A stretch of 64,000 nt of DNA. It comes from Candidatus Sulfotelmatobacter sp. Lineage in GTDB: Bacteria > Acidobacteriota > Terriglobia > Terriglobales > Acidobacteriaceae. Shown piece after piece: positions 45,093 to 60,306 of this stretch. The translations under genes were made by a program, and so were the position numbers. The first letter of the stretch is position 1. Each line of letters begins with the position of its first letter. Location: positions 248,001 through 312,000 of the forward strand of contig DASYBM010000016.1 in the NCBI GenBank assembly GCA_036500765.1, given 5' to 3'. Below the pieces are notes generated by a model. It searched no databases. It was not told the DNA's origin and saw nothing but the letters and a program-made list of their open reading frames with translations.

Positions 45093-47456
45093 TTACGCGC
45101 TGCTAGAGGAGGAAGAAGTTTCAGCCACACCGTCATCTTCTTCGTCATGATCGGAGGAGTCTCCCTCACGGTAATAGCGGGCATACTTGCTTTGATATTC
45201 GTAATAGTAGTAATAGTCCGGCGAACTCAGGTCCACGGCGTTGAGCAGAACCCCGACGACCTTGGCGTTGACATTCACGAGAATATCGCGGGAGCGGCGC
45301 AGGGCCTGCTTGGTGGTTTGGCCGGAGCGAATCACGAGCACGACGGCGTCGGCGCGGGTGGAAAGGACGACGGCGTCGGTCACCGACAGCGACGGAGGCG
45401 TGTCGATCACGATATGGTCATACTGTTCACGCAGTTGGACCAGCACATCGCGCATGTTGGGCGAAGCCAAAAGTTCGGCCGGATTGGGCGGAGGAGTTCC
45501 CGCCGGCAGCACGTACAAATTGGGAAGAACTGCGGTCCGGGCGATGGCATGCTCCAGAGTGGTGCTGCCAGTCAACACGTTGCTTAACCCGCTGTGGTGG
45601 CCCATGCCGAGGGTCTTGTGAATGCTGGGACGACGCAAATCGGCGTCGATGAGAAGGACGCGCACACCTTTTTGGGCCAGCACCACCGCACAATTGATGC
45701 TGGTGGTCGTCTTGCCTTCCTGGGGCAGGGCACTGGTGACCATAATGACTTTCGGAGGCGCTCCCAGGTTCGAAAGCAAAAGAGAGGTACGGAGGGCACG
45801 ATAGGACTCTGCCATTTGCGACTGGGGCCGGACCTGGGTCACCAGTTCGACGGCTTCTTTGGAGGTGGCGATCACCAGGCGTTTGGGGTTGGGGCCATCG
45901 CGGGCAGTTTTCGAGCCCAGGGGAATCATGCCCAGCGACGCCAGGCCGGAAATCATCTGGGCCTGTTCTGTGGTGCGAACGGTATTGTCGATTCCCTCAA
46001 GCAGGAACGCCAGGCCGATGCCAGAGGCCAGGCCGAGCACCAAAGCAAACATCAGGTTGCGCGGGATATTTGGTTCGATGGGATAAGTTGGCGGTTGTGC
46101 GCTATCGACGACGTGGAAATTGTTATTCTTCAGCGCAGCCGACACGTCGGCTTCGCTGAGTTTCTGCAATAGACCTTCGTACAGCTGGCGACTGGTTTCC
46201 ACTTTCTGTTTGAGCAGGGTGTATTCGATAGCGCTTTCATTCAGTTTGTTGGCTTCCTGCTTTTGCTTTTCGAAGGCATCCTTCAACATACTCTCGCGCT
46301 GTAGAGCTGCGGTGTACTGGCCGCGGACCTTGGCGACAACCTTCTTCATTTCCGCCTGAATCTGGGAATCGATTTCCTTCAGCTGATTGTTCAACTGAGT
46401 CAGCTTGGGGTAAGCCGGGCCGAACTGGGTGCTCAAGTCGGCGCCCTGGATCTTAAGTTCGGCCTGCTTGCTCTTCAATTGATCGAGCAGCGCCGAGGTC
46501 GATTGTGTGCCGGGAGTTCCGTCATCCAGGCCTTCGGCGCTGCTGGCGATCGCGTCCGGATCGCCGGACTCGACCAACCGGTAGAGGGCCTCCTTGTCCA
46601 TGCGATCGCTTTCGGCGGAGGTGAGCTGTTTGTTGAGCTCGTCCAACTTTGACATCGTGATGTTCTGTTTTTCGTCGATGCCCAGGATTTCGTGCTCTTT
46701 CTGATATTGGACGAGCTTTTCCTGCGAGGTTTCCACCTGCATCTGGAGATCGACGAGTTGCCCCTTTAGCCACTCCGAGGCCTGCAAGGTGGAGTTATAG
46801 CGTTTCTGGAAATTGTTTTCGACATAAGTGCGCATCAGCGTGTTGACCACTGTCGAGGCCCGTTGGGGATCGGGGCTGCGGAATTTTACCTCGATGATGC
46901 GGGTATTCGGAACCAGGGTGACGGTCAAATTTCCCTTTAAATCGCCGATGGCGGCGGTGGCCCGGGCAGGATCGTTTTGCAGTGGGTCAGGCGCCAGGTC
47001 GGGGGATTCCGAAGGTGGAGGGGGAGCCTGGCCGGAGAACTTCGTGTCCTGATACAGATGCAGTTCGCCGATCACTTGCAGAGCGAGGGAATCGCTCTGC
47101 AAAGTTTTTATGTCCGTTTCTAATTCGGTAGGGTCGAAATAATCCAGGCTGAAGGTGGCGGTATTCTGAAAGTTGAGGCTGGCATCGGGCTTATTGATTT
47201 CGATGGTGCCCTTCGCCTCGTATCTCTTGGTCATCTTCAGGCTGGCGATGGCGACGACGCAAAAAATGGTGATCAGGCAGCCCAGTACGATCCATTTGCG
47301 CTTGCGCAAGATTCGGATCGATTCGCCGAGTGCGGAATCGCGCGTGGGGAATTCGGAATAGAGGCGCGCACCCGGCGGGCTTTGCGTCTCCAGGTTTTGA
47401 TTCGGATACATCTCGCGAACTGAGGGGTTGGCCGGTACCAGGGGTCCGAAATCCAT
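45093..47456 (-). CDS. Polysaccharide chain-length regulator / BY-kinase (Wzc-like)
   Basis: A 787-residue inner-membrane protein. The Wzz domain with two membrane helices flanks a coiled-coil periplasmic region (~55-500). A bacterial tyrosine-kinase domain follows, with Walker A around K582 (ALPQEGKTTTSINCAVV), Walker A' VLLIDADLRRPSIH and Walker B IVIDTPPSLSVTDAV. The C-terminus carries the expected tyrosine cluster (five consecutive Tyr, then EYQSKYARYYREG). It cycles phosphorylation to control polymer length and export. ATG at 47456 with GAGGAG upstream. The outer-membrane Wza partner is not in the window. Confidence 0.93.
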   Translation of the reverse strand: MDFGPLVPANPSVREMYPNQNLETQSPPGARLYSEFPTRDSALGESIRILRKRKWIVLGCLITIFCVVAIASLKMTKRYEAKGTIEINKPDASLNFQNTATFSLDYFDPTELETDIKTLQSDSLALQVIGELHLYQDTKFSGQAPPPPSESPDLAPDPLQNDPARATAAIGDLKGNLTVTLVPNTRIIEVKFRSPDPQRASTVVNTLMRTYVENNFQKRYNSTLQASEWLKGQLVDLQMQVETSQEKLVQYQKEHEILGIDEKQNITMSKLDELNKQLTSAESDRMDKEALYRLVESGDPDAIASSAEGLDDGTPGTQSTSALLDQLKSKQAELKIQGADLSTQFGPAYPKLTQLNNQLKEIDSQIQAEMKKVVAKVRGQYTAALQRESMLKDAFEKQKQEANKLNESAIEYTLLKQKVETSRQLYEGLLQKLSEADVSAALKNNNFHVVDSAQPPTYPIEPNIPRNLMFALVLGLASGIGLAFLLEGIDNTVRTTEQAQMISGLASLGMIPLGSKTARDGPNPKRLVIATSKEAVELVTQVRPQSQMAESYRALRTSLLLSNLGAPPKVIMVTSALPQEGKTTTSINCAVVLAQKGVRVLLIDADLRRPSIHKTLGMGHHSGLSNVLTGSTTLEHAIARTAVLPNLYVLPAGTPPPNPAELLASPNMRDVLVQLREQYDHIVIDTPPSLSVTDAVVLSTRADAVVLVIRSGQTTKQALRRSRDILVNVNAKVVGVLLNAVDLSSPDYYYYYEYQSKYARYYREGDSSDHDEEDDGVAETSSSSSSA

Positions 47457-47722
47457 GCTGCTCCTCAACGAATCTTTGACTGCTCCAAAGCCCAAACAGG
47501 GCTATCGTACACACCTAGAACCTAAAATCCCCGGTCGAAGAGGGCTGATCGTCGCGCAGGAAATTGTTTCGCACCGAGTTGGCTGGAGAGTTCGTCCAAC
47601 ATCTTAACATCGGATCAGCTAAAAACCGCGGTCAATTTTAGTCGCGAGGGGACATGCCGAATGCTGGGGAGTCGGCTATATTTCCGCTATACTTCCCTAT
47701 TCTAGCGGACGATTTGATTCGA

Positions 47723-48457
47723 ATGACGGGACAAACTTCCGGGCCCACGGTTCTGGGCATAGTTCCGGCGCGTGGTGGATCCAAAGGTGTCAGCCGAAAG
47801 AACATCCGCCTGCTGGATGGTCAGCCCCTGTTGGCATATACCGCGAGCGCCGCGCACATGGCATGCTCCCTCTCCAGGGTGTTACTCAGCACAGAAGATC
47901 CGGAAATCGCAGAGGTCGGGAAGTCGCTCGGACTCGACGTGCCTTTTCTGCGGCCGGTTGAACTGGCGCTCGATGCCACGCCAATGATCGACGTCATCCT
48001 GCATACCATCCGCTGGTCGCGGAGCCAAGGGCAAGATTACGATGCAATCTGCCTGCTTCAACCCACCAGTCCGCTGCGCAGCGCAGGAACGATCGATCGT
48101 TGTGTGGCGCGACTAGGGGGAGGCGAAACGGATACTGTAGTGTCGGTTCGGCCTGTGCCGCTGGAATACAATCCGCACTGGGTCTATTTTGAAACCCCCG
48201 ACGGGCTGTTGCAGCCGAGCATGAAGGGCAGCGATCCCATTCCGGCGCGTCAATTGCTGCCGCCGGCGTACCATCGCGACGGGAGCGTTTTCGCGGCCAA
48301 GACTCAGTCGGTGTTGGCTCACGGGTCGTTGTATGGCTCGAAAACGGTGGGGGTGGTTTCTCCGGAAGAGGAAGCCTGCGACTTGGACACCGAAGAACAG
48401 TGGGAATTGCTGGAGCGGAGACTGAAGGCGATGCGCAGCTTGTCTTCCGCTCACTAG
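47723..48457 (+). CDS. legF: CMP-nonulosonate synthetase (LegF/NeuA-like acylneuraminate cytidylyltransferase)
   Basis: A 244-residue protein of the acylneuraminate cytidylyltransferase family. The CTP-binding IVPARGGSKGVSRKNIRLL motif is near the N-terminus, with AICLLQPTSPLRSAGTID further on. The family makes CMP-sugars from nonulosonic acids. In a locus with LegB, LegC, LegG, LegI and PtmE relatives, its product is probably CMP-legionaminic acid. The ATG at 47723 begins the conserved part; an upstream ATG at 47654 has AGGGG very close. It ends in a 14-bp tandem duplication that contains the TAG stop. Confidence 0.82.
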   Translation: MTGQTSGPTVLGIVPARGGSKGVSRKNIRLLDGQPLLAYTASAAHMACSLSRVLLSTEDPEIAEVGKSLGLDVPFLRPVELALDATPMIDVILHTIRWSRSQGQDYDAICLLQPTSPLRSAGTIDRCVARLGGGETDTVVSVRPVPLEYNPHWVYFETPDGLLQPSMKGSDPIPARQLLPPAYHRDGSVFAAKTQSVLAHGSLYGSKTVGVVSPEEEACDLDTEEQWELLERRLKAMRSLSSAH

Positions 48458-48471
48458 CTTCCGCTCGCTAA
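48444..48471. repeat. 14-bp tandem duplication spanning the legF stop codon
   Basis: CTTCCGCTCACTAG (48444-48457) then CTTCCGCTCGCTAA (48458-48471). The first copy ends in the legF TAG stop, and the second restores an in-frame TAA. Confidence 0.9.
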
Positions 48472-48536
48472 TTCGAAGATTGCGATACTTCGCGAAGCGA
48501 ATTCTACACCACGACTTGCAATCCCCTATTTCTTTC

Positions 48537-50309
48537 ATGGCGAAAACGCTTCATCTTTACGCGGGCGATAGCGATCCCACTTACGCGGTAGGAACGGTCG
48601 GTCTGCTGTGTGAATTTGCGCCGGACAGCCCATGCCTGAAGGCCGCGGAACACTATTACGGGCCGGACAAAATGCTGGGCTCGGTGGATGCGGCGTTGCC
48701 GGTCGCATACGCGCTGGTTTCGAAGCTTTTTCAGAGTTCCCCGATAATCGATGGCCTGCCTGTGCTGAAGGTGTTTGAAGAGTTGTTGCTCGAGCAGGTG
48801 AGTTACATCGCGCAGGCGTTTCATCTTGATCGCTGGATCCGCGCGCAGAGTTTCGAGGAATGCAAGTTCGTCTCATATTCGCCCTGGCTTGACCGGTTGT
48901 TACAAGTCCGCAAAGTTACCGGCTCGAGATACACGGTGGTTGCCGACGTGCCGATTCTACAAAGTCATCGGGGCGGGCGTGCGTTGCGGAAGTTGTGGGA
49001 CTCGCGTCCAACGCCAGCGGAGTTTTTGCACCGGGCGCTGCCCTTGTGGTCGCGTCGTGTATCGGCCGCGGGCAAGTGGAAACAGGCGCAAGACGCGCCG
49101 CGCGGCGGAATCTGGTTTTATTCGCTGGCCTACAACTTCACGAAAATCGGACTGCTCTACGAACCGTTCTTTCCGCAAAAGATGAATTTTCTGGTGGAAG
49201 ATCCGCGGACGGGTGGAAAGCGTCTTCGCGAAGTGGGACGAAAGTCGCACTGGTTGTATGCGTGGTCGCGAACCTCCGACATTCCGTCGTTGGGAGAGAC
49301 GCGCTCGATTGGCCGCCGAATTATCGAGGCCTTGGCCGCGGCCGCCCTCACCGCCGACGAAGATGCGTTGCGAACGGTGATGTTGAATAGCGAGTGGTGG
49401 AGCCATCTGCTGACGCGCCGCTTGCCGTTTGTGTTGTTCAATAATCGCGTTCTGCAACGGTGGCGTGAAGCCGTACGGCCGGAGACGATCGTCGTCGGCA
49501 ATGCGGGAGATGAACGAGTTCTGCTGCTGCGCGAAGATGCCGAGCGAGTTCCCACGGTTCTGCTGCAACACGGCATCATGCATTGGACGTATGCCGTAAC
49601 CGATGAACCGGTGGACGTATTTGTGCTGCGTGGTGCGTTCTTTCAGCGTTCGGTGAATGAGAATTTTCGCCGCAAGACGGTGGTGCATAATTTTGCGGAA
49701 CGAAATTTTCCGGAAGCGAACGCGGCCGTTTCGCAGCAAGAGAACGTTGCATGCAAGGACATTCTGTTTATTACGGCGCCCTACGATGTACCCCCGCTTT
49801 ATCATCGGAAGGATCTGGTCGACATTCTGCGCTCGCTGCTGCGCGTGGCGCATTCGACCCGTCGCCGCCTGACAATTCGAGTGCATCCTAACGAAACGAT
49901 TCCGGCATATCGGCAAGCCGTTGAGGAATTGCAGCGAGAAGCGGGATTGCAGGCCGAGGTGGCGTACTCGCAAGGGCCGGGCGTTGAAGCGGTGCTCGCG
50001 CGTTCCTGCGTGGCGGTCCTCCACTTTTCGACGATGTTTCTCGATTGCCTCCGCCACAGCATTCCGATCGTGAGTTTTGGCTGGCATGGGTTTCCCAATA
50101 AGCGGCAATTCGAGGATGAGGGAATTTTTCATTTTGCGGCGAACCTGGGCCGGCTGGAAACGCTCGTGGGCGAGGGAATTGAGGGTCGCCTGCCCCAGCA
50201 AAGCGCGAGGCTCGAAGATTTTCTGGCGCCCAGTCGTCCGCAGGAAGTCTCAAAATTCTTTCAGGAGATCTGGGATGCGCGAGGAGCCGCACTTGAAATC
50301 CCTCATTGA
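48537..50309 (+). CDS. Putative GT-B-fold capsular/nonulosonate glycosyltransferase
   Basis: A 590-residue soluble protein. I do not recognise a named family. Features of capsule GT-B transferases are visible: VPTVLLQHGIMHW (the QHG motif of Kdo/sialyltransferase-like and CDP-glycerol-type enzymes), RLTIRVHPNETIPAYRQAV (HPxE-like), and a donor-site-like HFSTMFLDCLRHSIPIVSFG near the end. It lies 79 bases after legF in the same direction, so it may be the enzyme that uses CMP-legionaminic acid. That link is inference from position and fold motifs. Start ATG at 48537. Confidence 0.58.
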   Translation: MAKTLHLYAGDSDPTYAVGTVGLLCEFAPDSPCLKAAEHYYGPDKMLGSVDAALPVAYALVSKLFQSSPIIDGLPVLKVFEELLLEQVSYIAQAFHLDRWIRAQSFEECKFVSYSPWLDRLLQVRKVTGSRYTVVADVPILQSHRGGRALRKLWDSRPTPAEFLHRALPLWSRRVSAAGKWKQAQDAPRGGIWFYSLAYNFTKIGLLYEPFFPQKMNFLVEDPRTGGKRLREVGRKSHWLYAWSRTSDIPSLGETRSIGRRIIEALAAAALTADEDALRTVMLNSEWWSHLLTRRLPFVLFNNRVLQRWREAVRPETIVVGNAGDERVLLLREDAERVPTVLLQHGIMHWTYAVTDEPVDVFVLRGAFFQRSVNENFRRKTVVHNFAERNFPEANAAVSQQENVACKDILFITAPYDVPPLYHRKDLVDILRSLLRVAHSTRRRLTIRVHPNETIPAYRQAVEELQREAGLQAEVAYSQGPGVEAVLARSCVAVLHFSTMFLDCLRHSIPIVSFGWHGFPNKRQFEDEGIFHFAANLGRLETLVGEGIEGRLPQQSARLEDFLAPSRPQEVSKFFQEIWDARGAALEIPH

Positions 50310-50339
50310 GAGGCGTCATCCCGGAGAGGCGTCGTCCCG
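50308..50339. repeat. 16-bp tandem duplication at a stop codon
   Basis: GAGAGGCGTCATCCCG (50308-50323) then GAGAGGCGTCGTCCCG (50324-50339), one difference. The first copy starts inside the TGA stop (50307-50309) of the preceding gene. Confidence 0.85.
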
Positions 50340-50353
50340 AAGACCGGCGCAGT

Positions 50354-51448
50354 TCAGCCGACCAGCCGAATTATGAGATCCTCCCACTGCGGGGCAATCC
50401 GCTCCCAATCCCATTCCCTTGCCATCGCCGCGCCCTGTTGCCCCATCGTTAGCCGCATGGCGGGATCGTGGATCAATGCGCCGACGTAGTCGCTCAGTTC
50501 TTCACCGGACCATGCCACCAATCCGTTACGTTCGTGAACGACGGTGGGCGCTTCAAAAAAACCGTGCAACACAATGGGCAGGCCGCACGCTGCGGCTTCC
50601 TGAGTCACTTTCGGAACGCCCTCGGAACGAGAGGGCAGGACGAAGATCGACGATTTACGAAATTCTTCCGCCAAGAGTGCGGGAGGAAGCGCGCCGGGAA
50701 AACTAAGATTTTCAAGACCCATCTGGCTCGCCTCGGTCATGAGCGCCCGCACCATTTCGCCGTCGCCAAACCAGACGAAGTCCGCTTCTTTATAACGTTC
50801 GGCCAGGCCGAGAAACATCTGCGGATGCTTGGAACTCTTCACCGTTCCGCAACCCACGATCCGGCAACGTGAAGGTTCCTGCCGGTCGGCGTTGTGGAAA
50901 ATGTTGGCCTCCAGACCGAGCGGCAGACAGGAAACTTTATCTCCGTAGAGAAACGCGGCGGCGCGGGCGAGAAACGGGCTGACCGCGATGATGTGATCGG
51001 CGCTTTCATACAACCAGCGAAGGCGCGGCACCGCCGCGTCCGTGTTCGGTTGGGAGAAAACCGGGTGGCCGACCAGATTGGAAAGTCGCTCGATCGACTG
51101 GGGCGAGGTGATTAAGCCCTCGAGAGTCGCGATCACGGGACTTCGCCGTCCCGAGAGCCTGCGAAGCCTGAGCCCAAGTTGGTCCCCCCAATGCGGCCCC
51201 GGATAAAAAACGGCATCGAATCCGGATTGGTAAGCTGCGCCCAACTCGCATTGCCAGAAGCGCGACCCGGAAAGACGCAGCGTTTCAACGCCGTTTTGTC
51301 GAATTGACCCGGCGGGCTCTTCGCTGCAAATGGCTGTCCAGCGGGCGCGTGGATCTTTGAAGCGAGACAGCAGAGCGCGGGCGTTCGCATTCTGGGAATT
51401 GGTATCGGACCGATCCATCCATCGTGGAACAAACAGGTGAATCGCCAT
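50354..51448 (-). CDS. Glycosyltransferase family 4 (GT-B)
   Basis: A 364-residue retaining glycosyltransferase. Its C-terminal Rossmann domain includes VGCGTVKSSKHPQMFLGLAE, DFVWFGDGEMVRALM and the E-x7-E motif in FVLPSRSEGVPKVTQEAAACGLP. The N-terminal domain is less conserved. It lies eight bases after legC on the same strand and so belongs to the ptmE-legB-legC transcript. Its donor and acceptor sugars cannot be told. Confidence 0.85.
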   Translation of the reverse strand: MAIHLFVPRWMDRSDTNSQNANARALLSRFKDPRARWTAICSEEPAGSIRQNGVETLRLSGSRFWQCELGAAYQSGFDAVFYPGPHWGDQLGLRLRRLSGRRSPVIATLEGLITSPQSIERLSNLVGHPVFSQPNTDAAVPRLRWLYESADHIIAVSPFLARAAAFLYGDKVSCLPLGLEANIFHNADRQEPSRCRIVGCGTVKSSKHPQMFLGLAERYKEADFVWFGDGEMVRALMTEASQMGLENLSFPGALPPALLAEEFRKSSIFVLPSRSEGVPKVTQEAAACGLPIVLHGFFEAPTVVHERNGLVAWSGEELSDYVGALIHDPAMRLTMGQQGAAMAREWDWERIAPQWEDLIIRLVG

Positions 51449-51456
51449 GCGGTTAA

Positions 51457-52680
51457 CTATCGCCCAATTGCGCGTCGGTTGAGGTTCATAAGCGATTCGA
51501 TGACGTAAGCTTGATCGGAATCCGACAATCCGACCGAGCAGGGAAGGCTCAGGGCGCGGGCGTGGATCCAGTCGGCTGCTTCACAATGAAAGGCCTCGCA
51601 GTCGCGATGCACCGGGCTGCGATGCATCGGTTGCCACAGGGGCCGAGTCTGGATGCCTCGTGCCTCCAGTTCCCTCATGGTATTTCGCGAGCTGAGTCCA
51701 AAAAGATCTTCATCTATTAAAACCGTGTATAGCCAAAAAATGCTTTCCGCCCACTCCGCCTGCGGCATCAAGGTAATGCCGGGCGTGTTCTTCAGACCCT
51801 CCGCATAGCAAGAGGCGATCGCCTGTTTCTTGCGAATGAACTCCGGCAGCATTTCGATCTGGCCGCAGCCCATGGCGGCCTGGATGTTGGTGAGGCGATA
51901 GTTGTATCCGATTTCTCCGTGCACGAATTCCACGGGATCGTCTTTTGCCTGCGTAGTGAGATACTTCGCTTTCGCGGCCCAGTCCGCGTTTGAAGTTACG
52001 ATGGCGCCGCCGCCGCCGGTGGTGATGATTTTGTTGCCGTTGAAGCTGAAGCAGGCGATGTCTCCGATTGTCCCGGTGTTCCGGCCGCGATATTTCGCAC
52101 CCAGGCACTCGGTGGCGTCTTCAATCACGGTAAGACCGAATTCGTGGGCCACGGAGACGATCGGTTCCATATCGACGGGATGACCGAGAATGTGCACCGG
52201 GAGGATGGCTTTTATGCGGCGTCCCGTGCGGCGGTTGCGCAGCTCTCTTTCTCCCTGCGAGTATTGGCAGTTCTGGCGCAGAAAGTCCTGCGTTTTTTGC
52301 GCATCGAGTTGCCAGTACTGGGGCTCGGCATCGATCAGGACCGGCCATGCTCCGGCGTAACGAATGGCATTGACGGGCGCGATAAACGTGAGGGTCGAGA
52401 CCAGCACTTCGTCATCGGGCTGGACTCCGCTGACCAGCAGTGCTATGTGCAGAGCCGAGGTCCCGTTGCTGGTGGCGACCGCCGACTGCGCTCCCACCGT
52501 TTCAGCGATCATAGTTTCCGCGAGCATAGTTTCGGCGAGCATGCTCTCGAAGCGATTTACGTACTCACCGACCGAAGATACCCATCCCGTGTCGAGGCAG
52601 TCTTTGACATACTTCCACTCGTTGCCGCGAATTTCAGGGGCGGAGAGCGGAATGTATGCCGTTGCCGTGTTGGGTTTCAC
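51457..52680 (-). CDS. legC: PLP aminotransferase of the LegC type (DegT/DnrJ/EryC1 family)
   Basis: A 407-residue sugar aminotransferase. The Schiff-base lysine is K217 in CFSFNGNKIITTGGGGAIV; HILGHPVDMEPI and EDATECLGAKYRG line the active site. In the legionaminic route it aminates C4 of the 4-keto-6-deoxy nucleotide sugar made by LegB, whose gene overlaps its start by ATGA. The N-terminal segment reads ESMLAETMLAETMIAETVGA, where the family usually has a single short helix here: a 15-bp tandem repeat has lengthened the helix by about ten residues. The rest aligns without gaps, so the enzyme is probably active. Confidence 0.85.
   Translation of the reverse strand: MKPNTATAYIPLSAPEIRGNEWKYVKDCLDTGWVSSVGEYVNRFESMLAETMLAETMIAETVGAQSAVATSNGTSALHIALLVSGVQPDDEVLVSTLTFIAPVNAIRYAGAWPVLIDAEPQYWQLDAQKTQDFLRQNCQYSQGERELRNRRTGRRIKAILPVHILGHPVDMEPIVSVAHEFGLTVIEDATECLGAKYRGRNTGTIGDIACFSFNGNKIITTGGGGAIVTSNADWAAKAKYLTTQAKDDPVEFVHGEIGYNYRLTNIQAAMGCGQIEMLPEFIRKKQAIASCYAEGLKNTPGITLMPQAEWAESIFWLYTVLIDEDLFGLSSRNTMRELEARGIQTRPLWQPMHRSPVHRDCEAFHCEAADWIHARALSLPCSVGLSDSDQAYVIESLMNLNRRAIGR
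52507..52551. repeat. 15-bp in-frame tandem repeat within legC, three units
   Basis: GATCATAGTTTCCGC, GAGCATAGTTTCGGC and GAGCATGCTCTCGAA lie in tandem. They encode the repeated (M)LAET of the LegC N-terminal helix on the minus strand. Confidence 0.85.
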
Positions 52681-53660
52681 AGGGCGTAGACTCCGGTCCG
52701 ATAGCGGTCGAGATTCGAGCGCATCCAGTCCAGGGTGTGCTGCAAGCCCGCGCGCAAGCTCACCTCCGGACGCCAGCCTAATAACTCGTTTGCCAGGCGA
52801 TTGTCGGCGAGGAGGCGATCGACTTCACTTCCGGCGGGCCGAACGCGCTGTTCCTCCTGGATAATTTTGCAATCACTGCCGACGGCAGAGCAGATCGTGC
52901 GGGCAAGATCGCCGATGGAGATTTCAGTGCCGGTGCCGAGATTGACGACACGGCCGACGGCTTTCTCACTCGCCGCATTCAATAGAAATCCTCGGACGGT
53001 GTCCGCCACGTAATTGAAATCTCGCGTAGGAGCCACGTTCCCGACGCGAATCGGCTCCCCGGCCAAGGCCTGCGTCATGATCGTGGGAATGACGGCGCGG
53101 GCCGACTGGCGCGGACCGTAAGTATTGAAGGGACGAACAATGCTGACCGGTAGCCCAAACGCGCAATGGAACGACTCCGCCAATTTATCCGCCCCAATCT
53201 TGGTCGCGGAGTACGGCGACTGGCTTTGCAGAGCGTGGTCTTCCGAGATCGGGATTTGGCGTGCAGTTCCGTAAACTTCGCTGGTCGAGGTATGCACGAT
53301 TCGCGACACGCCGGAACGCAGCGATTCCTGAAGAATATTCATGGTGCCGATGATGTTCGCGCTGACGTACGACGACGGCGACACATAAGAATAGGGGATG
53401 GCGATCAGAGCGGCGAGGTGGAACACCACGTCTACGCCCTTCAGCGCGGCCTTGACGCTGTCCGCCTCACGGATGTCGCCGGCCATAATCTCCATGTCGT
53501 CGCGCAGATCGCTTTCATCCATCCAACCGCGGCGCCCCGAGCTGTTGTAGTGAACGAGTGCGCGGGTCTGCGCGCCAGCGCGAACAAGCGCTTCGGCGAG
53601 ATGACTGCCGATGAAGCCGCCTGCGCCCGTGACCAGTACCGATTTGGATTTCCAATTCAC
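52677..53660 (-). CDS. legB: Nucleotide-sugar 4,6-dehydratase of the LegB type (extended SDR)
   Basis: A 327-residue NAD-dependent epimerase/dehydratase. The Rossmann motif is TGAGGFIGSH (11-20) and the active-site YxxxK is Y150/K154. HTSTSEVYGTARQIPISEDH and RPFNTYGPRQSARAVIPTI strongly recall Campylobacter LegB, the GDP-GlcNAc 4,6-dehydratase. The frame is open upstream to 53765, but the true start is GTG at 53660, which overlaps the ptmE stop as GTGA and leaves the Rossmann fold at residue 8. It makes the 4-keto-6-deoxy intermediate for LegC. Confidence 0.87.
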   Translation of the reverse strand: MNWKSKSVLVTGAGGFIGSHLAEALVRAGAQTRALVHYNSSGRRGWMDESDLRDDMEIMAGDIREADSVKAALKGVDVVFHLAALIAIPYSYVSPSSYVSANIIGTMNILQESLRSGVSRIVHTSTSEVYGTARQIPISEDHALQSQSPYSATKIGADKLAESFHCAFGLPVSIVRPFNTYGPRQSARAVIPTIMTQALAGEPIRVGNVAPTRDFNYVADTVRGFLLNAASEKAVGRVVNLGTGTEISIGDLARTICSAVGSDCKIIQEEQRVRPAGSEVDRLLADNRLANELLGWRPEVSLRAGLQHTLDWMRSNLDRYRTGVYAL

Positions 53661-54751
53661 TTGGCGGTTACTCCACGGTTCACAGTCGCCCCTCCCATGC
53701 TTTGCACGTCGTGCTGGGCGCGCTCGTAATCCTCGTGGCGGCCGATGTCGAGCCAATACTCCCACACCGGAAAGCTGACCACCTTACTCCGAGACTGAAC
53801 GAGAATGTCGATCAGTTGGGGCATGTCGAAATGCTGGCCCGACGGAATCAAGGCCCGTGCCGAGGGAGAAATCAAGTAGATGCCGGCATTGACGAAGAAC
53901 TTTACCGTCGGTTTTTCCGTGACTGCGGTGACGTGCAAACCATCGGTTTCGACGACGCCATAGGGAACATCGAAGCCGTATTCGCGCACCGCAACCGTCA
54001 TAGCGGCGGCGTGCTCGAAATGGAAGTCGAGGAAGGCCCGGAAATCGAGAGCGGTCAGGATGTCGCCATTGATCACCAGGAGCGGATCGTTCCCTGAGAC
54101 CAATGACAAGGAACCGGCCGTGCCCAGGGGTTGATCCTCAGTTACGCATTCGACTTCGATGCCGAAGGCTTCACCCTTGCCGAAATGCGCGGAGATCTGA
54201 TCGCCTTTGTAATTGGTGCTGATATTGATGCGCGCGATGCCGGCTTGCTTCAGTTGGTGTACCAGGCGATCGATTAGCGGTTGCTCGCCCACGGGCAGCA
54301 TGGGTTTGGGTGTGTCGGCAGTCAGTGGCATCAGGCGCGCACCCAGGCCGCCGGCCATTACCACCGCGTGAACTGGGGCGTGACGCTCGGCCACCAGATC
54401 GTCGAGTACGGCGAGTTCGAGCACGCATCCGTCGCCATCCACGAGCGGAATTTGCCTAACGGCGCGGGCTTTCATTTCGCTGAGAATGGCGTCTTTCGGG
54501 CTGCCTTGGGGAAGCGTGATCGGGTTGCGGTTGTCCTGCGTGCGGCGTTTTGCAATCAGAGTCGCAACCGGAAAGTCCAGGCCGATTCCAGCCAGCACGG
54601 CGCGCCGTAAATCTCCATCGGTCAAAGTTGCGATCAGGCGCTTGCGTTCGTCGACCACCAGCGCGATGCCCTTGGCGCCGCGATCGATGCAGGCCATTAC
54701 TTCACGCAGGCTGGCCTTTTCGGTCGTGCAAATTTTCTCGATGAACTCCAT
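53657..54751 (-). CDS. ptmE: CBS-domain nucleotidyltransferase of the PtmE type
   Basis: A 364-residue fusion. Two CBS motifs (residues ~1-120, with ATLTDGDLRRAVLAG) precede a sugar-1-phosphate nucleotidyltransferase domain from ~128 (AVVMAGGLGARLMPLTADTP, the GGxGxRLxPLT signature; TNYKGDQI; LLVINGDILT). In Campylobacter, PtmE is the CBS-fused guanylyltransferase that starts the GDP-linked legionaminic acid route. The same layout and its place ahead of legB-legC support the role here. CBS pairs often bind adenosyl nucleotides, so allosteric control is possible. First gene of the leftward operon. Confidence 0.83.
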   Translation of the reverse strand: MEFIEKICTTEKASLREVMACIDRGAKGIALVVDERKRLIATLTDGDLRRAVLAGIGLDFPVATLIAKRRTQDNRNPITLPQGSPKDAILSEMKARAVRQIPLVDGDGCVLELAVLDDLVAERHAPVHAVVMAGGLGARLMPLTADTPKPMLPVGEQPLIDRLVHQLKQAGIARINISTNYKGDQISAHFGKGEAFGIEVECVTEDQPLGTAGSLSLVSGNDPLLVINGDILTALDFRAFLDFHFEHAAAMTVAVREYGFDVPYGVVETDGLHVTAVTEKPTVKFFVNAGIYLISPSARALIPSGQHFDMPQLIDILVQSRSKVVSFPVWEYWLDIGRHEDYERAQHDVQSMGGATVNRGVTAK

Positions 54752-54836
54752 CAGTGCCCGATCCTGTTATGGATGCGAGTAAATCTTATCATCGAGCAGC
54801 AAAGCTTCGTGGGTGAAGCGCAGGTCGGTTGAACGG

Positions 54837-54881
54837 GAGATCCTTCATTCCGCCTGAAGAACGGCTCCGTGCAGGATGACA
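54837..54881. repeat. 45-bp dispersed repeat, copy 4
   Basis: GAGATCCTTCATTCCGCC...GTGCAGGATGACA, in the divergent control region between ptmE and legI. Confidence 0.85.
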
Positions 54882-54928
54882 TTGCAGTGTGGGGGAAGCC
54901 GATTCCGTCTCGCCTATAATGTCAGGCG

Positions 54929-55969
54929 ATGGAAATTGGCGGCAAGAAAATCGGAAGTGGGAATCCCTGCTTCGTCATTGCCGAAGCGGGAGTGAACCAT
55001 AACGGCAGTCTGGAAACGGGGCTGCGTCTCGTCGATGCGGCTGTCGAAGCCGGGGCCGACGCCGTGAAGTTCCAGACTTTCAAAGCTGAAAAGCTGATTT
55101 CAGCCGCCGCGCCGAAGGCCGACTATCAGAAGGCGACGACCGGAAGCGCGGAAGCACAACTGGAAATGGTGCGGGGGCTCGAGATGCCGGAGGCGATGAC
55201 ATACGCCGTCGCTGAACACGCCGCGAGGCGCAGAATTATTTTTCTGTCGACGGCGTTTGATGAAGAAAGCGCGGATTTGCTCATGAGGATCGGAGTTCCC
55301 GCCTTCAAAGTCAGTTCCGGGGACGTGACTGACCTTCCGCTGTTGGCGTTTCTGGGCCGAAAGCGGAAACCGGTAATCCTGTCGACTGGGATGTCGTACC
55401 TGGAGGAAGTTGAGAGCGCCGTGGAGACGCTGCTCGCTTCCGGCTGCCCCGAACTGGCGCTTCTGCATTGCGTTTCAAGCTATCCCGCCACTCCCGAGTC
55501 GGCCAACTTGAAGGTCATTCCGGCGATGAAGCGGCACTTCAACGTGCCCGTCGGATTCAGCGACCACTCGCTCGGAAACGAGTTGGCCATTGCCGCGGTC
55601 GCGCTCGAGGCAGATATTATCGAGAAGCACATCACGTTAGACATCAATCTGCCGGGGCCCGACCACAAGGCGTCTCTCGCACCCGATGCCTTCAAGAATA
55701 TGGCTCGATCGATTCGGTTGATTGAGGCAGCGCGAGGCGACGGGGTAAAAAGGCCTACGGCCGCCGAGCAGAATGTGCGAGATGTAGCTCGGCGCAGCAT
55801 CGTGGCGGCGCGCACGATTGCGCGGGGCGAGGTAATCACTCGGGAGATGCTTGCTTTTAAGCGGCCGGGCACCGGTATCTCTCCTGCCGACTGGAAAAAG
55901 ATAGTGGGTAGAAGCGCCGCGCGCGAAATTTGCTTCGATACGCCGATCGCTGCCGGTGATCTGGCATGA
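54929..55969 (+). CDS. legI: Nonulosonate synthase (LegI/NeuB family)
   Basis: A 346-residue protein. The NeuB TIM barrel includes VIAEAGVNHNGSLETGLRLV, AVKFQTFKAEKLIS, ILSTGMSYLEEVESAVE and FSDHSLGNELAIAAVALEAD with the catalytic-type EKHITLD. It is followed by a C-terminal SAF (antifreeze-like) domain from ~285. It condenses a 6-carbon amino sugar with phosphoenolpyruvate to a nonulosonic acid. The surrounding LegB/LegC/PtmE relatives favour legionaminic acid over neuraminic acid. It starts the rightward leg operon and its stop overlaps legG by four bases (ATGA). Confidence 0.87.
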   Translation: MEIGGKKIGSGNPCFVIAEAGVNHNGSLETGLRLVDAAVEAGADAVKFQTFKAEKLISAAAPKADYQKATTGSAEAQLEMVRGLEMPEAMTYAVAEHAARRRIIFLSTAFDEESADLLMRIGVPAFKVSSGDVTDLPLLAFLGRKRKPVILSTGMSYLEEVESAVETLLASGCPELALLHCVSSYPATPESANLKVIPAMKRHFNVPVGFSDHSLGNELAIAAVALEADIIEKHITLDINLPGPDHKASLAPDAFKNMARSIRLIEAARGDGVKRPTAAEQNVRDVARRSIVAARTIARGEVITREMLAFKRPGTGISPADWKKIVGRSAAREICFDTPIAAGDLA

Positions 55970-57123
55970 CGCTCCGGGTTGCCGTTGTGACGGTGGGCCG
56001 ATCGGACTATGGAATCTATTTTCCGGTGCTGCGCCTGCTTCAGGCTGACCCACAATTCGAATTGCAGCTGATTGTGGCCGCGGCCCACTTCGATCCCACC
56101 CAGGGAAGCACCGTTCAGGAGATGGAGAACGATGGGTTCGCCATTGCTGCCCGAGTGCCGATGCGACTGCCGGGCGATTCAAGGCAGGACGCAGCGGTCG
56201 CCATCGGAGCCGGCGTGCAGGAGTTCGCCACGGCCTACGGAGAACTTCGATCTGACATTATCCTTTTGCTCGGAGACCGGTACGAGATGCTGTCGGCAGC
56301 CGTGGCCGCGCTGCCTTGTCGGATTCCGATCGGCCACATTCATGGCGGAGAACTCACTTTCGGCGCGATCGATGACGCCATTCGACACTGCATCACCAAG
56401 CTTAGTCATGTGCACTTCGCCGCCACCGCGGAATATGCCCGACGCATCGAGCAACTTGGGGAAGAGTCGTGGCGGGTGCATACGACGGGTTCTCCCGTGA
56501 TCGATTCGATCTTATCGATGGAGGCGATACCGAGGGAGGAACTGGAAGCGGAAATTGGACTGGACCTGTCGCAAACCCTTCTGATCACCTACCATCCGGT
56601 AACGCTGGAACAGAATCCCGCGGAGCATATCTCTGCGCTGCTGGCAGCGGTCTCGGCACCGGGCTACTCGCTGTTGTTTACGCACTCCAACGCGGATCCG
56701 CATCGCTCCGAGATTGTCGCCAGCATAGAAAAGTTTGTCGCGAAGACCCCGAACGCTCGGCTGGTGAAAAATCTTGGCCATCGTACGTACCACAGCGTGC
56801 AAAGACATGTCGCGGCCATGGTGGGAAATTCCAGCAGCGGCATCATCGAGGCCGCAAGTTTTCGCCTGCCCGTCGTGAATATAGGAATTCGTCAAGAGGG
56901 CCGCGTCCGGTCTGCCAATGTGATCGACGTCGGAAACTCGCCGGAAGAGATCGCGCGCGGGATTGAGAAAGCCGTGAGTTCCGAGTTTCGAAAGTCGCTC
57001 GCGAACATGCAGAATTTGTATGGAGATGGCTGTGCTGCGGAGAGAATTGTATCGGTGTTGAAGAAAACCGAGATTGGGCCGAAGTTACTGATCAAGAAAT
57101 TTGCCGACCACCGGGTAGAATGA
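55966..57123 (+). CDS. legG: Hydrolysing nucleotide-sugar 2-epimerase (LegG/NeuC family)
   Basis: A 385-residue GT-B-fold 2-epimerase. GRSDYGIYFPVLRLLQ at the N-terminus, LLGDRYEMLSAAVAALPCRIP, GHIHGGELTFGAIDDAIRHC and the uridylyl-site region VGNSSSGIIEAASFRLPVVNIG follow NeuC/LegG. It removes the nucleotide and inverts C2 to give the 6-deoxy-diacetamido-mannose-type substrate for LegI. It is coupled to legI and legH by 4-bp overlaps at both ends. Confidence 0.87.
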   Translation: MTLRVAVVTVGRSDYGIYFPVLRLLQADPQFELQLIVAAAHFDPTQGSTVQEMENDGFAIAARVPMRLPGDSRQDAAVAIGAGVQEFATAYGELRSDIILLLGDRYEMLSAAVAALPCRIPIGHIHGGELTFGAIDDAIRHCITKLSHVHFAATAEYARRIEQLGEESWRVHTTGSPVIDSILSMEAIPREELEAEIGLDLSQTLLITYHPVTLEQNPAEHISALLAAVSAPGYSLLFTHSNADPHRSEIVASIEKFVAKTPNARLVKNLGHRTYHSVQRHVAAMVGNSSSGIIEAASFRLPVVNIGIRQEGRVRSANVIDVGNSPEEIARGIEKAVSSEFRKSLANMQNLYGDGCAAERIVSVLKKTEIGPKLLIKKFADHRVE

Positions 57124-57791
57124 GCCGCATGACTGAGCCTGCAAAACTGGTGATTCTCGGCGCTGGCGGCCTGGGCCGGGAAGTCCTGGCCACGGTAAGA
57201 GCGTGCAACGAAGCCGGCCGGCAATGGGATGTCTTGGGTTTCTTGGACGCGGATGAAAAGCTTGCCGGGAAGAAAGTGGGAGGAGTCCCGGTCCTCGGCG
57301 GGGACGACTGGTATCGAAACAATCAGTACGAATCGTTGCGATTTGTTTGCGCGATCGGAAAGCCCGAAGTGCGATCCAGAGTCGTTGAAACGATGTCAGC
57401 GGTGAAATCAAAATTTGTTTCGGTCGTTCATCCGGCCGTTCAAGTTGCAGAATCGGTCGCAATCGGAGCCGGCACCGTAATTATGGCGGGCACGCAGTTT
57501 ACCGCCGATATAAGGATCGGATCGCATGTTGTGATTTATCTGAATTGTTCGATCACCCACGACGTTTGCGTAGGCGATTTTTGCGTGATTCCTTCCGGCT
57601 GCAATCTCTCCGGTGGAGCAATATTGGAAACCGGCGTCCTGCTCGGGAGTGGCGTGAGTGTGCTGCCTCGCCGGCGAATCGGGGCCTGGGCGACGATTGG
57701 AGCGGGAAGTGTTGTGGTCAAAGATATTCCTCCGAAAAGCACTGCGATGGGCGCTCCTTGTAGGGTGATCGAGCAGCGGCCGGGATCATGA
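57120..57791 (+). CDS. legH: Sugar acetyltransferase of the LegH/NeuD/PglD type
   Basis: A 223-residue protein. The N-terminal Rossmann-like domain (VILGAGGLGREVLATVRAC) is followed by a left-handed beta-helix hexapeptide acyltransferase (AESVAIGAGTVIMAGTQFTA, IRIGSHVVIYLNCSITHDV, LETGVLLGSGVSVLPRRRIG). The catalytic-type His is in TH of SITHDVCVG. In the pathway it would N-acetylate the 4-amino sugar made by LegC. The overlap with legG is ATGA. A tandem duplication lies across its stop. Confidence 0.83.
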   Translation: MSRMTEPAKLVILGAGGLGREVLATVRACNEAGRQWDVLGFLDADEKLAGKKVGGVPVLGGDDWYRNNQYESLRFVCAIGKPEVRSRVVETMSAVKSKFVSVVHPAVQVAESVAIGAGTVIMAGTQFTADIRIGSHVVIYLNCSITHDVCVGDFCVIPSGCNLSGGAILETGVLLGSGVSVLPRRRIGAWATIGAGSVVVKDIPPKSTAMGAPCRVIEQRPGS

Positions 57792-57811: not shown

Positions 57812-57922
57812 GGGATCGTGAATGTCTAGACTACATCGCGATTGCGAAACAGTCGGACGCTGAAACTCCGTAAACGGGAACCGGGGCTCAAAACTTGGTC
57901 AAGCGACGATGAGGATTGATTG

Positions 57923-59038
57923 ATGAGAATCGTCAGTCCCTTCCTGAATAAAGTGTTCTATCCCGCACTGGCGATGGCCGGCGTTTTTCACCGCGCCAGC
58001 GCCGCAGGACTTGCGGTGGTGACCTACCACGGTGTCCTGCCACAAGGCTACGAACCGATCGACGCAGCCTTGGATGGAAACCTTATCGGCGCTGAAATGC
58101 TCCGCCGGCAACTGCGCCTGCTGAAGGCGCACTATAACGTGATCTCCCCTGACGATGTGTTGGCCTGGCGCGAAGAGCGGGGCGCGCTGCCGCCGCGGGC
58201 GGTTCTTCTGACTTGTGACGATGGCCTTCTCAATTGTCTGACCGACATGTTGCCCGTTCTGCAACAGGAGGAAGTGACGTGTCTGTTCTTCGTGACTGGG
58301 GCTTCGGTCGCGGAATCGCGAAGCACACTGTGGTACGAAGAGTTGTTCCTGCTGTTTCTGCTCGCTCCGGCAGGACCGTTCGAGATTTCAAGCGTAGGGT
58401 TAACTATTCGGGGTGAACTCAGATCAAGTGAACCGCGATCGCGCAAAGAACGGCGCGCGCTCTGGTGGAATTCCGTGAAGCGGCTTTCGCAGGTGGATGA
58501 GGGAGCGCGAGCGTCGTTTCTTGCCGCCGCGCGGATGCAGTTTGGGGGGCAGAGAGATTCCCGCCAGGACAAACCCGCCTGGTGGCGCCGGTTCGGGCTG
58601 CTCACACGCGGCGAACTTCGAGAATTGGCCGCCTCCGGAATGACGGTCGGCGCGCACACGCTGAGCCATCCGATGCTGTCGCTACTTCCCGCGGAAGAAG
58701 CGTACGCCGAAATTTCCGAAAGCCGGATTCGTTTGGAGGGAGCTCTTCCACACCGACTTTGGGCGTTTGCTTACCCCTTTGGGAACCGAGAATCGGTTAC
58801 GCCGGAAGTATTGGCGATGCCGCAGAAAGCCGGTTACGAAGCTGCCTTTGTGAACTTTGGAGGGGGGCTTGGCGTCGATCTGCCTCCCTATGCGCTGCCT
58901 CGGGTGCACGTTACGGCTGAAATGAATCTGGCCGAACTTGAGGCGCACGTGTCAGGGTTCCACGTGCGCATGCAGCAACGAGCCGGTCGCCCGACTCGAA
59001 CCCTGGGAGCATTATGCAAAAATTCACCATCGAAGTGA
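57923..59038 (+). CDS. Polysaccharide deacetylase (NodB-type carbohydrate esterase 4)
   Basis: A 371-residue protein with the NodB fold. The catalytic base/metal motif is LLTCDDGLLN (D99-D100), the metal-binding H-x3-H is GAHTLSHPMLS, and YPFGNRESV is present. An insert of about 100 residues separates the first two motifs. It removes N- or O-acetyl groups from sugars and would modify the exported polymer or a lipid-linked precursor. ATG at 57923 with GAGG upstream. No signal peptide; probably cytosolic face. Confidence 0.85.
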   Translation: MRIVSPFLNKVFYPALAMAGVFHRASAAGLAVVTYHGVLPQGYEPIDAALDGNLIGAEMLRRQLRLLKAHYNVISPDDVLAWREERGALPPRAVLLTCDDGLLNCLTDMLPVLQQEEVTCLFFVTGASVAESRSTLWYEELFLLFLLAPAGPFEISSVGLTIRGELRSSEPRSRKERRALWWNSVKRLSQVDEGARASFLAAARMQFGGQRDSRQDKPAWWRRFGLLTRGELRELAASGMTVGAHTLSHPMLSLLPAEEAYAEISESRIRLEGALPHRLWAFAYPFGNRESVTPEVLAMPQKAGYEAAFVNFGGGLGVDLPPYALPRVHVTAEMNLAELEAHVSGFHVRMQQRAGRPTRTLGALCKNSPSK

Positions 59039-59157
59039 CGAGGAGTATCGCCGAGACTAATCTGCACCCACGGCGATGCTCGGGCAGCCGCTGGTGAGGT
59101 GGCCGCTCGCTCTGCGATGGGTTGATACTATTACCTATTCAGCGAACCTTTCGCGAA

Positions 59158-60306
59158 GTGAATTCAATCGTGCGCGTCGTACTGCTTAAGGAAATTCCGG
59201 AAGATGCGAATCTGCGGCAGCAGTGGAATGCACTGGTGCAGCGAGTGGATCAGCCTCAGGTTTTCTATACCTACGAGTGGTCCCTGGCAGTACAGCGCGC
59301 TTACGATGCGACCCTGCGGCCACTGCTTTGTTTGGCGTACGACGAGAGCGGAACGCTGTGTGGAGTCGCGTCCCTGGCCACCGATTCCGATCGAACTCAC
59401 GCCTCTTTTCTTTGCGCTACTACGGGAGACTACTGCGATTTTCTCAGCTTGCCGGCTCATAGGGACGGGTTGATTGCGTGGGTGTTAGGGGAATTAAGGA
59501 AGCAAGGCATTTGCGACATTACGCTCACCAACCTGCCCGCCGACTCCGATTCGATCGCGGCCCTGCAAACGGCCTCGCAGGAAAACGGTTATCGATGCTT
59601 CGCGCGCACAGCCTACATCTGCGCTCAGGTTTTGCTAAGCAGCCTGGAACATCGTCCCGGTGAGAAGAAACCGGTCTTGCCAGGGAACAAAATGGTACGC
59701 CGGTCGCTGAAAGCGCTGGGCAGTGAATCCCCCGTACGGCTCGACCATGCCCGCACCTGGCCAGAGATTGGGCCCTTATTGCCTGCGTTCATGCAGGCAC
59801 ATGTGGCGCGCTTTCTGGCCACTGGCCGCGTGAGTAATCTGGCGAACCGTGAACGCCAGCAGTTCGTGAAGGAATTGACGAAACTGCTGGCGGAGCCGGG
59901 GTGGGTGGCGCTCACGCGGATGATGTCGGGCTCGAAGGTTCTGGCGTGGAACTATGGCTTTCAGTTTTACGGTACCTGGTTTTGGTACCACCCTACATTC
60001 GACAGCGATTTGGAAAAATATTCTCCGGGCTTTTGCCTGCTGGCGAAGATAGTCGAGGAAGCGGCGGAGAACCCCGATTTCACCACGGTCGACCTGGGAC
60101 TGGGGACGGAGGAGTACAAAGAACGGTTCGCGAATCAAAGCCGGGAAACGCTCTACGTAAGCCTACGGACGTCCGCAGTTCAGCACGTGCGGGAGATTTT
60201 GCGTTACCGCGCCGCGAAGATCATCAAGACTTCTCCCTTGGTGGAGGCCGGGGTTCGCGCCATGATCGGGCGTTGGAAGAAAACGAACCGAAAACATGTA
60301 GACTAA
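59158..60306 (+). CDS. FemAB/CelD-like GNAT acyltransferase
   Basis: About 382 residues. The fold resembles the BcsL/CelD-like double-GNAT proteins found in polysaccharide loci: FYTYEWSLAVQRAYDATLRP near the N-terminus, and LAWNYGFQFYGTWFWYHPTF with DLGLGTEEYKERF near the C-terminus, a pattern typical of this group. It probably acylates a sugar or lipid carrier using acyl-CoA or an aminoacyl donor. The start is uncertain: GTG at 59158 or 59170, or a TTG at 59122; none has a strong ribosome site. It lies 12 bases before the flippase gene. Confidence 0.72.
   Translation: MNSIVRVVLLKEIPEDANLRQQWNALVQRVDQPQVFYTYEWSLAVQRAYDATLRPLLCLAYDESGTLCGVASLATDSDRTHASFLCATTGDYCDFLSLPAHRDGLIAWVLGELRKQGICDITLTNLPADSDSIAALQTASQENGYRCFARTAYICAQVLLSSLEHRPGEKKPVLPGNKMVRRSLKALGSESPVRLDHARTWPEIGPLLPAFMQAHVARFLATGRVSNLANRERQQFVKELTKLLAEPGWVALTRMMSGSKVLAWNYGFQFYGTWFWYHPTFDSDLEKYSPGFCLLAKIVEEAAENPDFTTVDLGLGTEEYKERFANQSRETLYVSLRTSAVQHVREILRYRAAKIIKTSPLVEAGVRAMIGRWKKTNRKHVD

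Follow-up and report, generated by a model that had tools for sequence, protein, structure and literature searches.

Which sugar acid is made by a bacterial polysaccharide locus that carries a whole nonulosonic acid (NulO) pathway, and which enzyme passes that acid on to the polysaccharide? We took up these questions for a locus of Candidatus Sulfotelmatobacter sp. (Acidobacteriota) in a stretch of 64,000 nucleotides of contig DASYBM010000016.1, here called the window, from a genome of 5.04 Mb that is 99.3% complete. A sequence-only reading of positions 47723-57791 had described a legionaminic acid (Leg) pathway linked to guanosine diphosphate (GDP), and had omitted from its finding two genes inside the same interval, one for a protein of 590 amino acids (aa; 48537-50309) and one for a glycosyltransferase of the GT4 type (50354-51448). 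We think it likely that the cell makes cytidine monophosphate (CMP)-Leg for incorporation into a polysaccharide that it exports, with the 590-aa protein, of GT-B type, transferring Leg. The stronger result, relative to the pathway itself, is a probable one, namely an unnamed family of nonulosonate transferases in which the branch goes with the sugar class. To our knowledge, few transferases of Leg, which is a bacterial relative of sialic acid, and of pseudaminic acid (Pse) have been characterised.

Relatives of the 590-aa protein fall into two branches, A and B, which are 16-20% identical to each other and homologous by hhalign (probability 97.1, E 6e-11, 220 columns). We assigned each of 66 stretches (G029 counted twice) to a sugar type according to the best matches among the synthase, dehydratase and aminotransferase genes in its neighbourhood; left unclassed were stretches fetched by their synthase that have no transferase gene (e.g., L075, L076 and L079-L082), contigs that carry just a second fragment (L026), and 37 named loci that largely repeat the same genomes. 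Branch A was present in six stretches, of which three were Leg (the window, G449 and G610), two were of the neuraminic acid (Neu) type (G021 and G452) and one, the 7.6-kb contig of G016, was undecided. Branch B was present in 59, 45 of them Pse-type and 14 undecided, with no Leg and no Neu stretch among them; the one remaining stretch had no family member over the threshold. The rule for branch A was noted on G000, G021 and G449, and the two stretches read later, G610 (Leg) and G452 (Neu), both fit; G449 and G452 belong to other genera. Branch-A scores separate cleanly, at 471 bits or more (one fragment excluded) in 6 of 398 genomes and at most 59 in the rest. A typical branch-B locus matches the PseB, PseC and PseI models at 480.9, 489.9 and 496.5 bits, all above cut-off. 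A profile of the family found relatives in 23 of 61 genomes, the window's own genome being one of them. Of the 37 named loci that were retrieved, 29 have a synthase gene, and 31 have any of synthase, aminotransferase and synthetase. Of 37 genomes of the genus, 22 have a strong NulO synthase (at least 74.7 bits) and every one of these has the family, as does one of the other 15. The Fisher p-values, 2.5e-9 for family versus NulO synthase in the genus and 4.7e-7 for branch versus sugar class, are overstated, because gene linkage in relatives does not give independent observations.

We give even chances to a specific form of this idea, in which the family would be an undescribed one founded on two old branches, each specific for donors of one stereochemical class: D-glycero-D-galacto for branch A (CMP-Leg and CMP-N-acetylneuraminic acid, CMP-Neu5Ac) and L-glycero-L-manno, that is CMP-Pse, for branch B. 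Besides the inflated p-values, several observations weigh against the association of branch and sugar class. In 14 of the 59 branch-B stretches, neither a synthase nor a dehydratase nor an aminotransferase exceeds the threshold, bar one weak LegB-like match; some of these undecided stretches are short contigs, but L106, L108, L217, L235 and L237 are 18-20 kb long. Three of the 45 Pse-type calls (G017, G026 and G653) were made on synthase type alone. In four of six LegB-bearing genomes (G445, G519, G313 and G436), the stretches that were read contain no gene of branch A, and G043, G052 and G058, outside the genus, have a strong NulO synthase and no family member; other transferases must therefore exist in such Leg clusters and NulO genomes. 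A relative of 22 bits near the G445 Leg cluster was dropped when the stretch was read further. The LegB-like matches of G591 and G595, which have branch B, are weak at 143-144 bits to the window's LegB, against 532 in G449 and 558 in G610, where they belong to Leg sets.

The two genes that the sequence-only reading had passed over are:

48537..50309, plus strand: 590-aa candidate CMP-nonulosonate transferase, next to the legF-like gene; belongs to branch A of the unnamed GT-B family (R448-X-H450-P451-X-E453, H345-G346 and S498-T499, numbered from the ATG at 48537)
50354..51448, minus strand: GT4-type glycosyltransferase, companion of branch A (PF00534, 59.5 bits)

Neither Pfam nor NCBIfam has a model whose cut-off the 590-aa protein reaches. 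It was tried and rejected as a member of GT38 (PF07388; 13.8 bits, cut-off 23.3), of Capsule_synth (PF05159; 14.8 bits, cut-off 20) and of the putative glycosyltransferases DUF6716 (PF20471), for which the best of 10 proteins reached 21.8 bits with a cut-off of 27; a literature search on DUF6716 found no paper. At E of 1 or less, 7 of 18 family members match PF07388 (best 3.4e-4), 4 match PF05159 (best 5e-4) and 10 match PF20471 (best 7.9e-5), the window protein not being among the last. Searched against PDB sequences, the window protein alone gave no match at E of 10 or less, and branch B alone gave a single match at E 1.1, which was judged to be chance. The window's own genome has no match to PF05159, PF07388 or PF01973 at E 0.001, with control searches giving matches, and none to PF07922 or PF06002, which is uninformative, the control genomes likewise having none. 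A plasmid search with the 590-aa protein gave no match; one with LegI gave 91 records, all below 60% identity.

Fold, motif and a weak profile match together suggest a link of the family to CMP-sugar donors. The predicted structure of a branch-B member, L144, is a GT-B fold, with its two Rossmann-like domains, and an extra N-terminal part (predicted local distance difference test, pLDDT, 88.3; predicted template modelling score, pTM, 0.88), in which residues 187-577 match GT-B enzymes and about 180 N-terminal residues lie outside the fold matches. Against the polysialyltransferase structure 5wc6, it gives Z 13.8 and a root-mean-square deviation of 4.5 over 297 aligned residues. The motif (K/R)XHPxE is present in all 29 rows of alignment A4 and in all six branch-A proteins; in alignment A5, (K/R)XHP is found in 32 of 32 ungapped rows and the Glu in 31 (from the 37 named loci, A5 omits fragments L158, L159, L178 and L180, and A4 also omits L146, L153, L169, L170 and L175). 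A Ser follows 46-48 residues after the motif His. (K/R)XHP has been described as common to sialyltransferases and 3-deoxy-D-manno-oct-2-ulosonic acid (Kdo) transferases (PMC12887879; here and below, papers are cited for passages of their text), and in Mannheimia haemolytica SiaD the CMP leaving group is stabilised by H291, possibly with help from S339-T340 (PMC5517516). This enzyme, 5wc6, represents the GT38 polysialyltransferases, which share with the 590-aa family the GT-B fold, (K/R)XHP and the Ser at 46-48; the 590-aa protein differs in its sub-threshold PF07388 score, its roughly 180 extra N-terminal residues and the absence from branch A, at the places inspected, of the D/E-D/E-G motif. 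The enzymes related to KpsS and KpsC (PF05159; GT99, GT107 and the pseudaminic transferase GT118) also combine CMP-ulosonate donors with an HP motif (PMC12887879); the match of the 590-aa protein to PF05159 is weak and below cut-off, and GT118 (Acinetobacter baumannii KpsS1) enters here through its description in such passages. Judged by fold, motif and the weak profile match to SiaD, the 590-aa family is probably an unnamed family of CMP-nonulosonate transferases.

The sugar itself is indicated by seven pathway genes, all open and full length:

47723..48457, plus strand: legF-like CMP-nonulosonate synthetase, 244 aa (CTP_transf_3; ATG start at 47723; PARGGSKG in the sequence)
51457..52680, minus strand: legC, pyridoxal phosphate aminotransferase, GTG start (TIGR04181, 465 bits; cut-off 420)
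52677..53660, minus strand: legB, 4,6-dehydratase, 327 aa, GTG start at 53660 (TIGR04180, 452 bits)
53657..54751, minus strand: ptmE, CBS-fused sugar-1-phosphate nucleotidyltransferase (CBS and NTP_transferase domains)
54929..55969, plus strand: legI, predicted legionaminic acid synthase (TIGR03569, the NeuB model, 435 bits, cut-off 399.65; PF03102 and SAF; also placed by tree)
55966..57123, plus strand: legG, hydrolysing 2-epimerase (TIGR03568, the NeuC model, 422.7 bits; cut-off 235.9)
57120..57791, plus strand: legH, NeuD/PglD-type N-acetyltransferase (TIGR03570, 202 bits; cut-off 160.8)

The sequence-only reading had listed the same seven relatives in two tight operons with one gene 5 kb away, and this arrangement was borne out. 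The divergent operons are ptmE-legB-legC with the GT4 gene on the minus strand and legI-legG-legH on the plus strand, the coordinates giving 4-base overlaps at ptmE/legB, legB/legC, legI/legG and legG/legH, and the legF-like gene lies about 5 kb away. The start it gave for LegB, 53765, needs correction, most likely to the GTG at 53660. Best-model E-values of the seven proteins span 2e-39 to 1e-139, which excludes chance matches. PtmE is nearest to the mannose-1-phosphate guanylyltransferase model among NCBIfam (157 bits, cut-off 440). LegB is uncommon here: of 200 genomes in the family, six, this one among them, score above 400 bits, with a gap from 402.8 down to 220.4.

The Campylobacter jejuni gene set for CMP-Leg consists of PtmE and LegB, C, H, G, I and F, with a CBS-fused PtmE beside LegB. 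The window has the same enzyme families in the same PtmE-LegB arrangement; it differs in that its Leg genes lie in a Wzx/Wzy polysaccharide locus, those of C. jejuni being in a flagellin glycosylation locus, and in that its LegF is poorly separated from PseF and NeuA. Since a separate Leg synthase or epimerase model was not among the NCBIfam matches, we built our own tree of 39 synthases (two pairs identical), phylogeny having been named beforehand as a test that might refute the Leg assignment. LegI clustered with the synthases of three other LegB-bearing clusters (support 0.95), apart from the PseI clade of the genus (0.97) and from the pair formed by the NeuB proteins of G021 and Neisseria meningitidis (1.00). 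The PseI model matches LegI below its cut-off (281 versus 340 bits). The best PDB match of LegI, and its closest solved relative, is Bacillus subtilis SpsE (237 bits, versus 193.3 for N. meningitidis NeuB), which is needed for Leg synthesis (PMC7439481); the sps pathway, by report UDP (uridine diphosphate)-linked (PMC7439481), serves the spore crust in that organism, the window genes a Wzx/Wzy locus. Neu5Ac and Pse were rejected as the product on the synthase tree, the PDB ranking and the LegB/LegC content, and gene content together with the tree supports a predicted pathway of the C. jejuni type. A ptmE-like gene accompanies legB in all five other LegB-bearing stretches (adjoining in four, about 5.4 kb off in G445), which favours the GDP route; the substrate of C. 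jejuni LegB is GDP-linked N-acetylglucosamine (GlcNAc; PMC7439481). Of the GDP-type pathway originally proposed, the Leg family set stands, the GDP link and the Leg chemistry are what we infer from it, and LegF is a candidate CMP-Leg synthetase.

Some results speak against the Leg assignment and have to be weighed with its rivals: the tree places SpsE next to the NeuB pair (0.81), outside the LegI clade; LegB is slightly below the TIGR04180 cut-off of 475 bits; and LegF, the weakest of the seven, has PseF as its best NCBIfam model (135.6 bits, cut-off 205.7). The best PDB match of LegF is a CMP-Neu5Ac synthetase, and relatives of it accompany Neu5Ac-type synthases in two genomes: in G452 the relative, 59% identical, is in the same stretch as the synthase, and in G021 it is 75% identical and its contig breaks off within that same transferase gene. 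The shortfall of LegB would suit a product that is a stereoisomer or other acylated relative of Leg (8-epi- or 4-epi-legionaminic acid, or another N-acyl form) or a pathway with UDP-linked precursors, as would the deacetylase and GNAT-fold genes downstream of the legI-legG-legH operon; the dehydratase for Leg in B. subtilis prefers UDP (PMC7439481), and isomers of the Leg pathway have been reported, one arising through extra genes added to a Leg cluster (PMC7371886). Against this stands the constant company of ptmE-like genes and legB, and we regard such a product or route as possible but unlikely. That the cluster makes neuraminic (sialic) acid, LegB and LegC serving another sugar, strikes us as very improbable. 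LegI and LegG do pass the NeuB and NeuC models respectively, neither having a separate Leg model among its matches; at the same place, however, G021 has a NeuB/NeuC pair and no room for legC-legB-ptmE, and its NeuB matches that of N. meningitidis at 405.7 bits, versus the 193.3 of LegI, from which the tree separates it.

The pathway may also be real and the 590-aa protein something else: an enzyme for another sugar or a cytidine diphosphate (CDP)-linked alditol, or a non-catalytic GT-B accessory protein, with the GT4 enzyme or an unlinked one transferring Leg. The GT4 gene is as faithful a companion of branch A as the 590-aa gene, with relatives of 353-560 bits adjoining the branch-A gene in G021, G449, G452 and G610 and a partial one of 214 bits at the contig edge in G016. 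Branch-B loci, however, give generic GT4 matches of 133 bits or less, whereas the 590-aa family occurs in both branches, and GT4 enzymes as a rule use nucleoside diphosphate (NDP)-sugars. TagF, which uses CDP-glycerol, is in the Foldseek list (E 1.8e-7), and for the low-confidence model of the window protein the top match is Asp1, an accessory secretion protein (Z 13.5); the conserved (K/R)XHP speaks against a dead enzyme. Further evidence also counts against a Leg transferase. The fold search was led by MurG (Z 15.9) and UDP-GlcNAc 2-epimerases, with many GT-B enzymes whose donors are not CMP-sugars scoring as high as 5wc6 or higher, so that the donor cannot be named from the fold alone. The window protein, folded with branch-B rows, reached a mean pLDDT of 55, a weak hint only; the best PDB sequence match of the family profile, SiaD 5wc6 with HP aligned on HP, is weak at E 0.018; and at the two places inspected for the D/E-D/E-G base motif, the six branch-A rows have VEDP/YADP/FNDP and VGNxx, with branch B having a DD pair at the second. 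The invariant H345 and D222 are candidates for the catalytic base of branch A. On balance, we consider some role other than Leg transfer unlikely for the 590-aa protein.

Beside the gene content, homology, cassette context, branch-B fold and motif conservation that we observed, the reactions, GDP link, donor, acceptor and inverting or retaining mode belong to a proposed mechanism. In it, PtmE, judging by its family, would make a GDP-linked GlcNAc-type precursor, which LegB would dehydrate, LegC aminate at C4 and LegH acetylate; LegG would remove GDP and invert C2, LegI would condense the product with phosphoenolpyruvate to give Leg, and the LegF-like enzyme would form CMP-Leg. The 590-aa protein, with (K/R)XHP as its CMP-binding motif, would then move Leg from CMP-Leg onto a lipid-linked repeat unit, to which the GT4 enzyme may add a neighbouring sugar; Wzx would flip the unit, Wzy polymerise it and Wzc control chain length. 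The transferase for B. subtilis Leg had yet to be identified according to PMC7439481. A family whose branch predicts sugar class could provide new enzyme-donor pairs for glycan synthesis and make surface sugars predictable in Acidobacteriota.

The genes around the cassette agree with the Wzx/Wzy/BY-kinase surroundings described earlier:

42266..43627, minus strand: Wzy/O-antigen-ligase-type polymerase (PF04932, 87.5 bits)
43687..45021, minus strand: protein with TPR and carbohydrate-binding domains, part of the conserved flank (identity of 42-63% in other loci)
45093..47495, minus strand: Wzc-type BY-kinase/chain length protein (TIGR01007, 193 bits, above cut-off; 60-74% identical where match coverage is at least 95%)
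57920..59038, plus strand: polysaccharide deacetylase, conserved flank (PF01522; up to 69% identical in relatives)
59122..60306, plus strand: GNAT-fold acyltransferase, conserved flank (PF13480, 78.7 bits; up to 66% identical)
60319..61935, plus strand: Wzx-type flippase (PF01943, 86 bits; up to 73% identical to its counterpart in a Pse-bearing locus)

A methyltransferase-like protein is also among the right-hand flank genes, with the deacetylase, the GNAT-fold protein and Wzx. Compared with Pse-bearing loci of the genus, the best identities are 74% for Wzc, 73% for Wzx, 64% for the deacetylase, 66% for the GNAT-fold protein and 67% for the methyltransferase-like protein, and only about 25-44% for LegB, LegC and LegI and their counterparts in those loci. 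G610, of the same genus, repeats the Leg genes (PtmE 561, LegB 558 and LegC 675 bits), its LegI being cut by the contig end and LegG and LegH lying beyond view. G449, of another genus, has LegB, LegC, LegI, PtmE, LegG and LegH at 73, 62, 58, 57, 46 and 37% identity. The G021 genes run transferase, GT4, NeuB, NeuC, deacetylase; the genes it has in common with the window are 63-75% identical, NeuB and NeuC 34% and 29%. Since the flanks are alike and the cassettes differ, the same polysaccharide locus within one genus holds a Pse, a Leg or a Neu cassette, and the sugar cassette appears to differ between strains together with a matching transferase branch.

Cassette exchange of this kind is known from the K loci of A. 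baumannii, where lga (Leg) and psa (Pse) modules are likewise alternatives at one export locus (PMC3628348); the present case differs in being in Acidobacteriota, in having a third, Neu5Ac-type module and in a candidate transferase branch that switches with the module. In the literature passages checked, we found no description of Neu-type cassettes in which the transferase branch changes to match. A search for legionaminic acid with acidobacteria returned only a virus paper, and wider listings had no mention of Acidobacteria or Sulfotelmatobacter among the matches listed, subscription journals and preprints being outside the scope of both. Such a pathway in a soil-type bacterium, which the sequence-only reading called notable, is no surprise by itself, nonulosonate pathways being widespread in non-pathogens according to passages of PMC8053191. 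If true, the alternation of Pse, Leg and Neu at one locus in soil-type bacteria would mean that nonulosonic acid switching is not confined to pathogens and hosts, and, if the branches are donor-specific, the cassette swaps would be a natural record of a transferase changing sugar handedness.

Other cassettes were also seen in this survey. The cassette at L177:423-7446, found in part in L031 (G017), has PseB (490.6 bits) and PseC (482.7 bits) over cut-off and a synthase under both cut-offs (NeuB 349.8, PseI 275.7 bits) on its own branch of the tree; it possibly makes another nonulosonic acid from a Pse precursor. A further divergent synthase type occurs with branch-B transferases at L170:2354-6609, L083:9144-10229, L233:15895-17007 and L244:2680-3888; it adjoins PseB/PseC in L170 and PseB in L233, and is under both synthase cut-offs in L170 and L083. 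Short NeuB-like proteins at L081:3399-4322, L082:9310-10206 and L085:8372-9472, in which GYSGHETG replaces the usual SDH motif, lie near genes weakly like ptmE, legB or legC and would represent a separate, unassigned pathway. A PseC-like gene is split over frames at L037:13873-15093 (G036) and L032:11484-12633 (G023), as a pseudogene or through assembly error. Finally, two LegF/PseF-like synthetase genes adjoin in one cassette at L145:7774-9226, and also in L146, L147, L148, L150 and L151; both genes of L145 match the PseF model, under cut-off, and cassettes of this type perhaps supply two activated nonulosonates.

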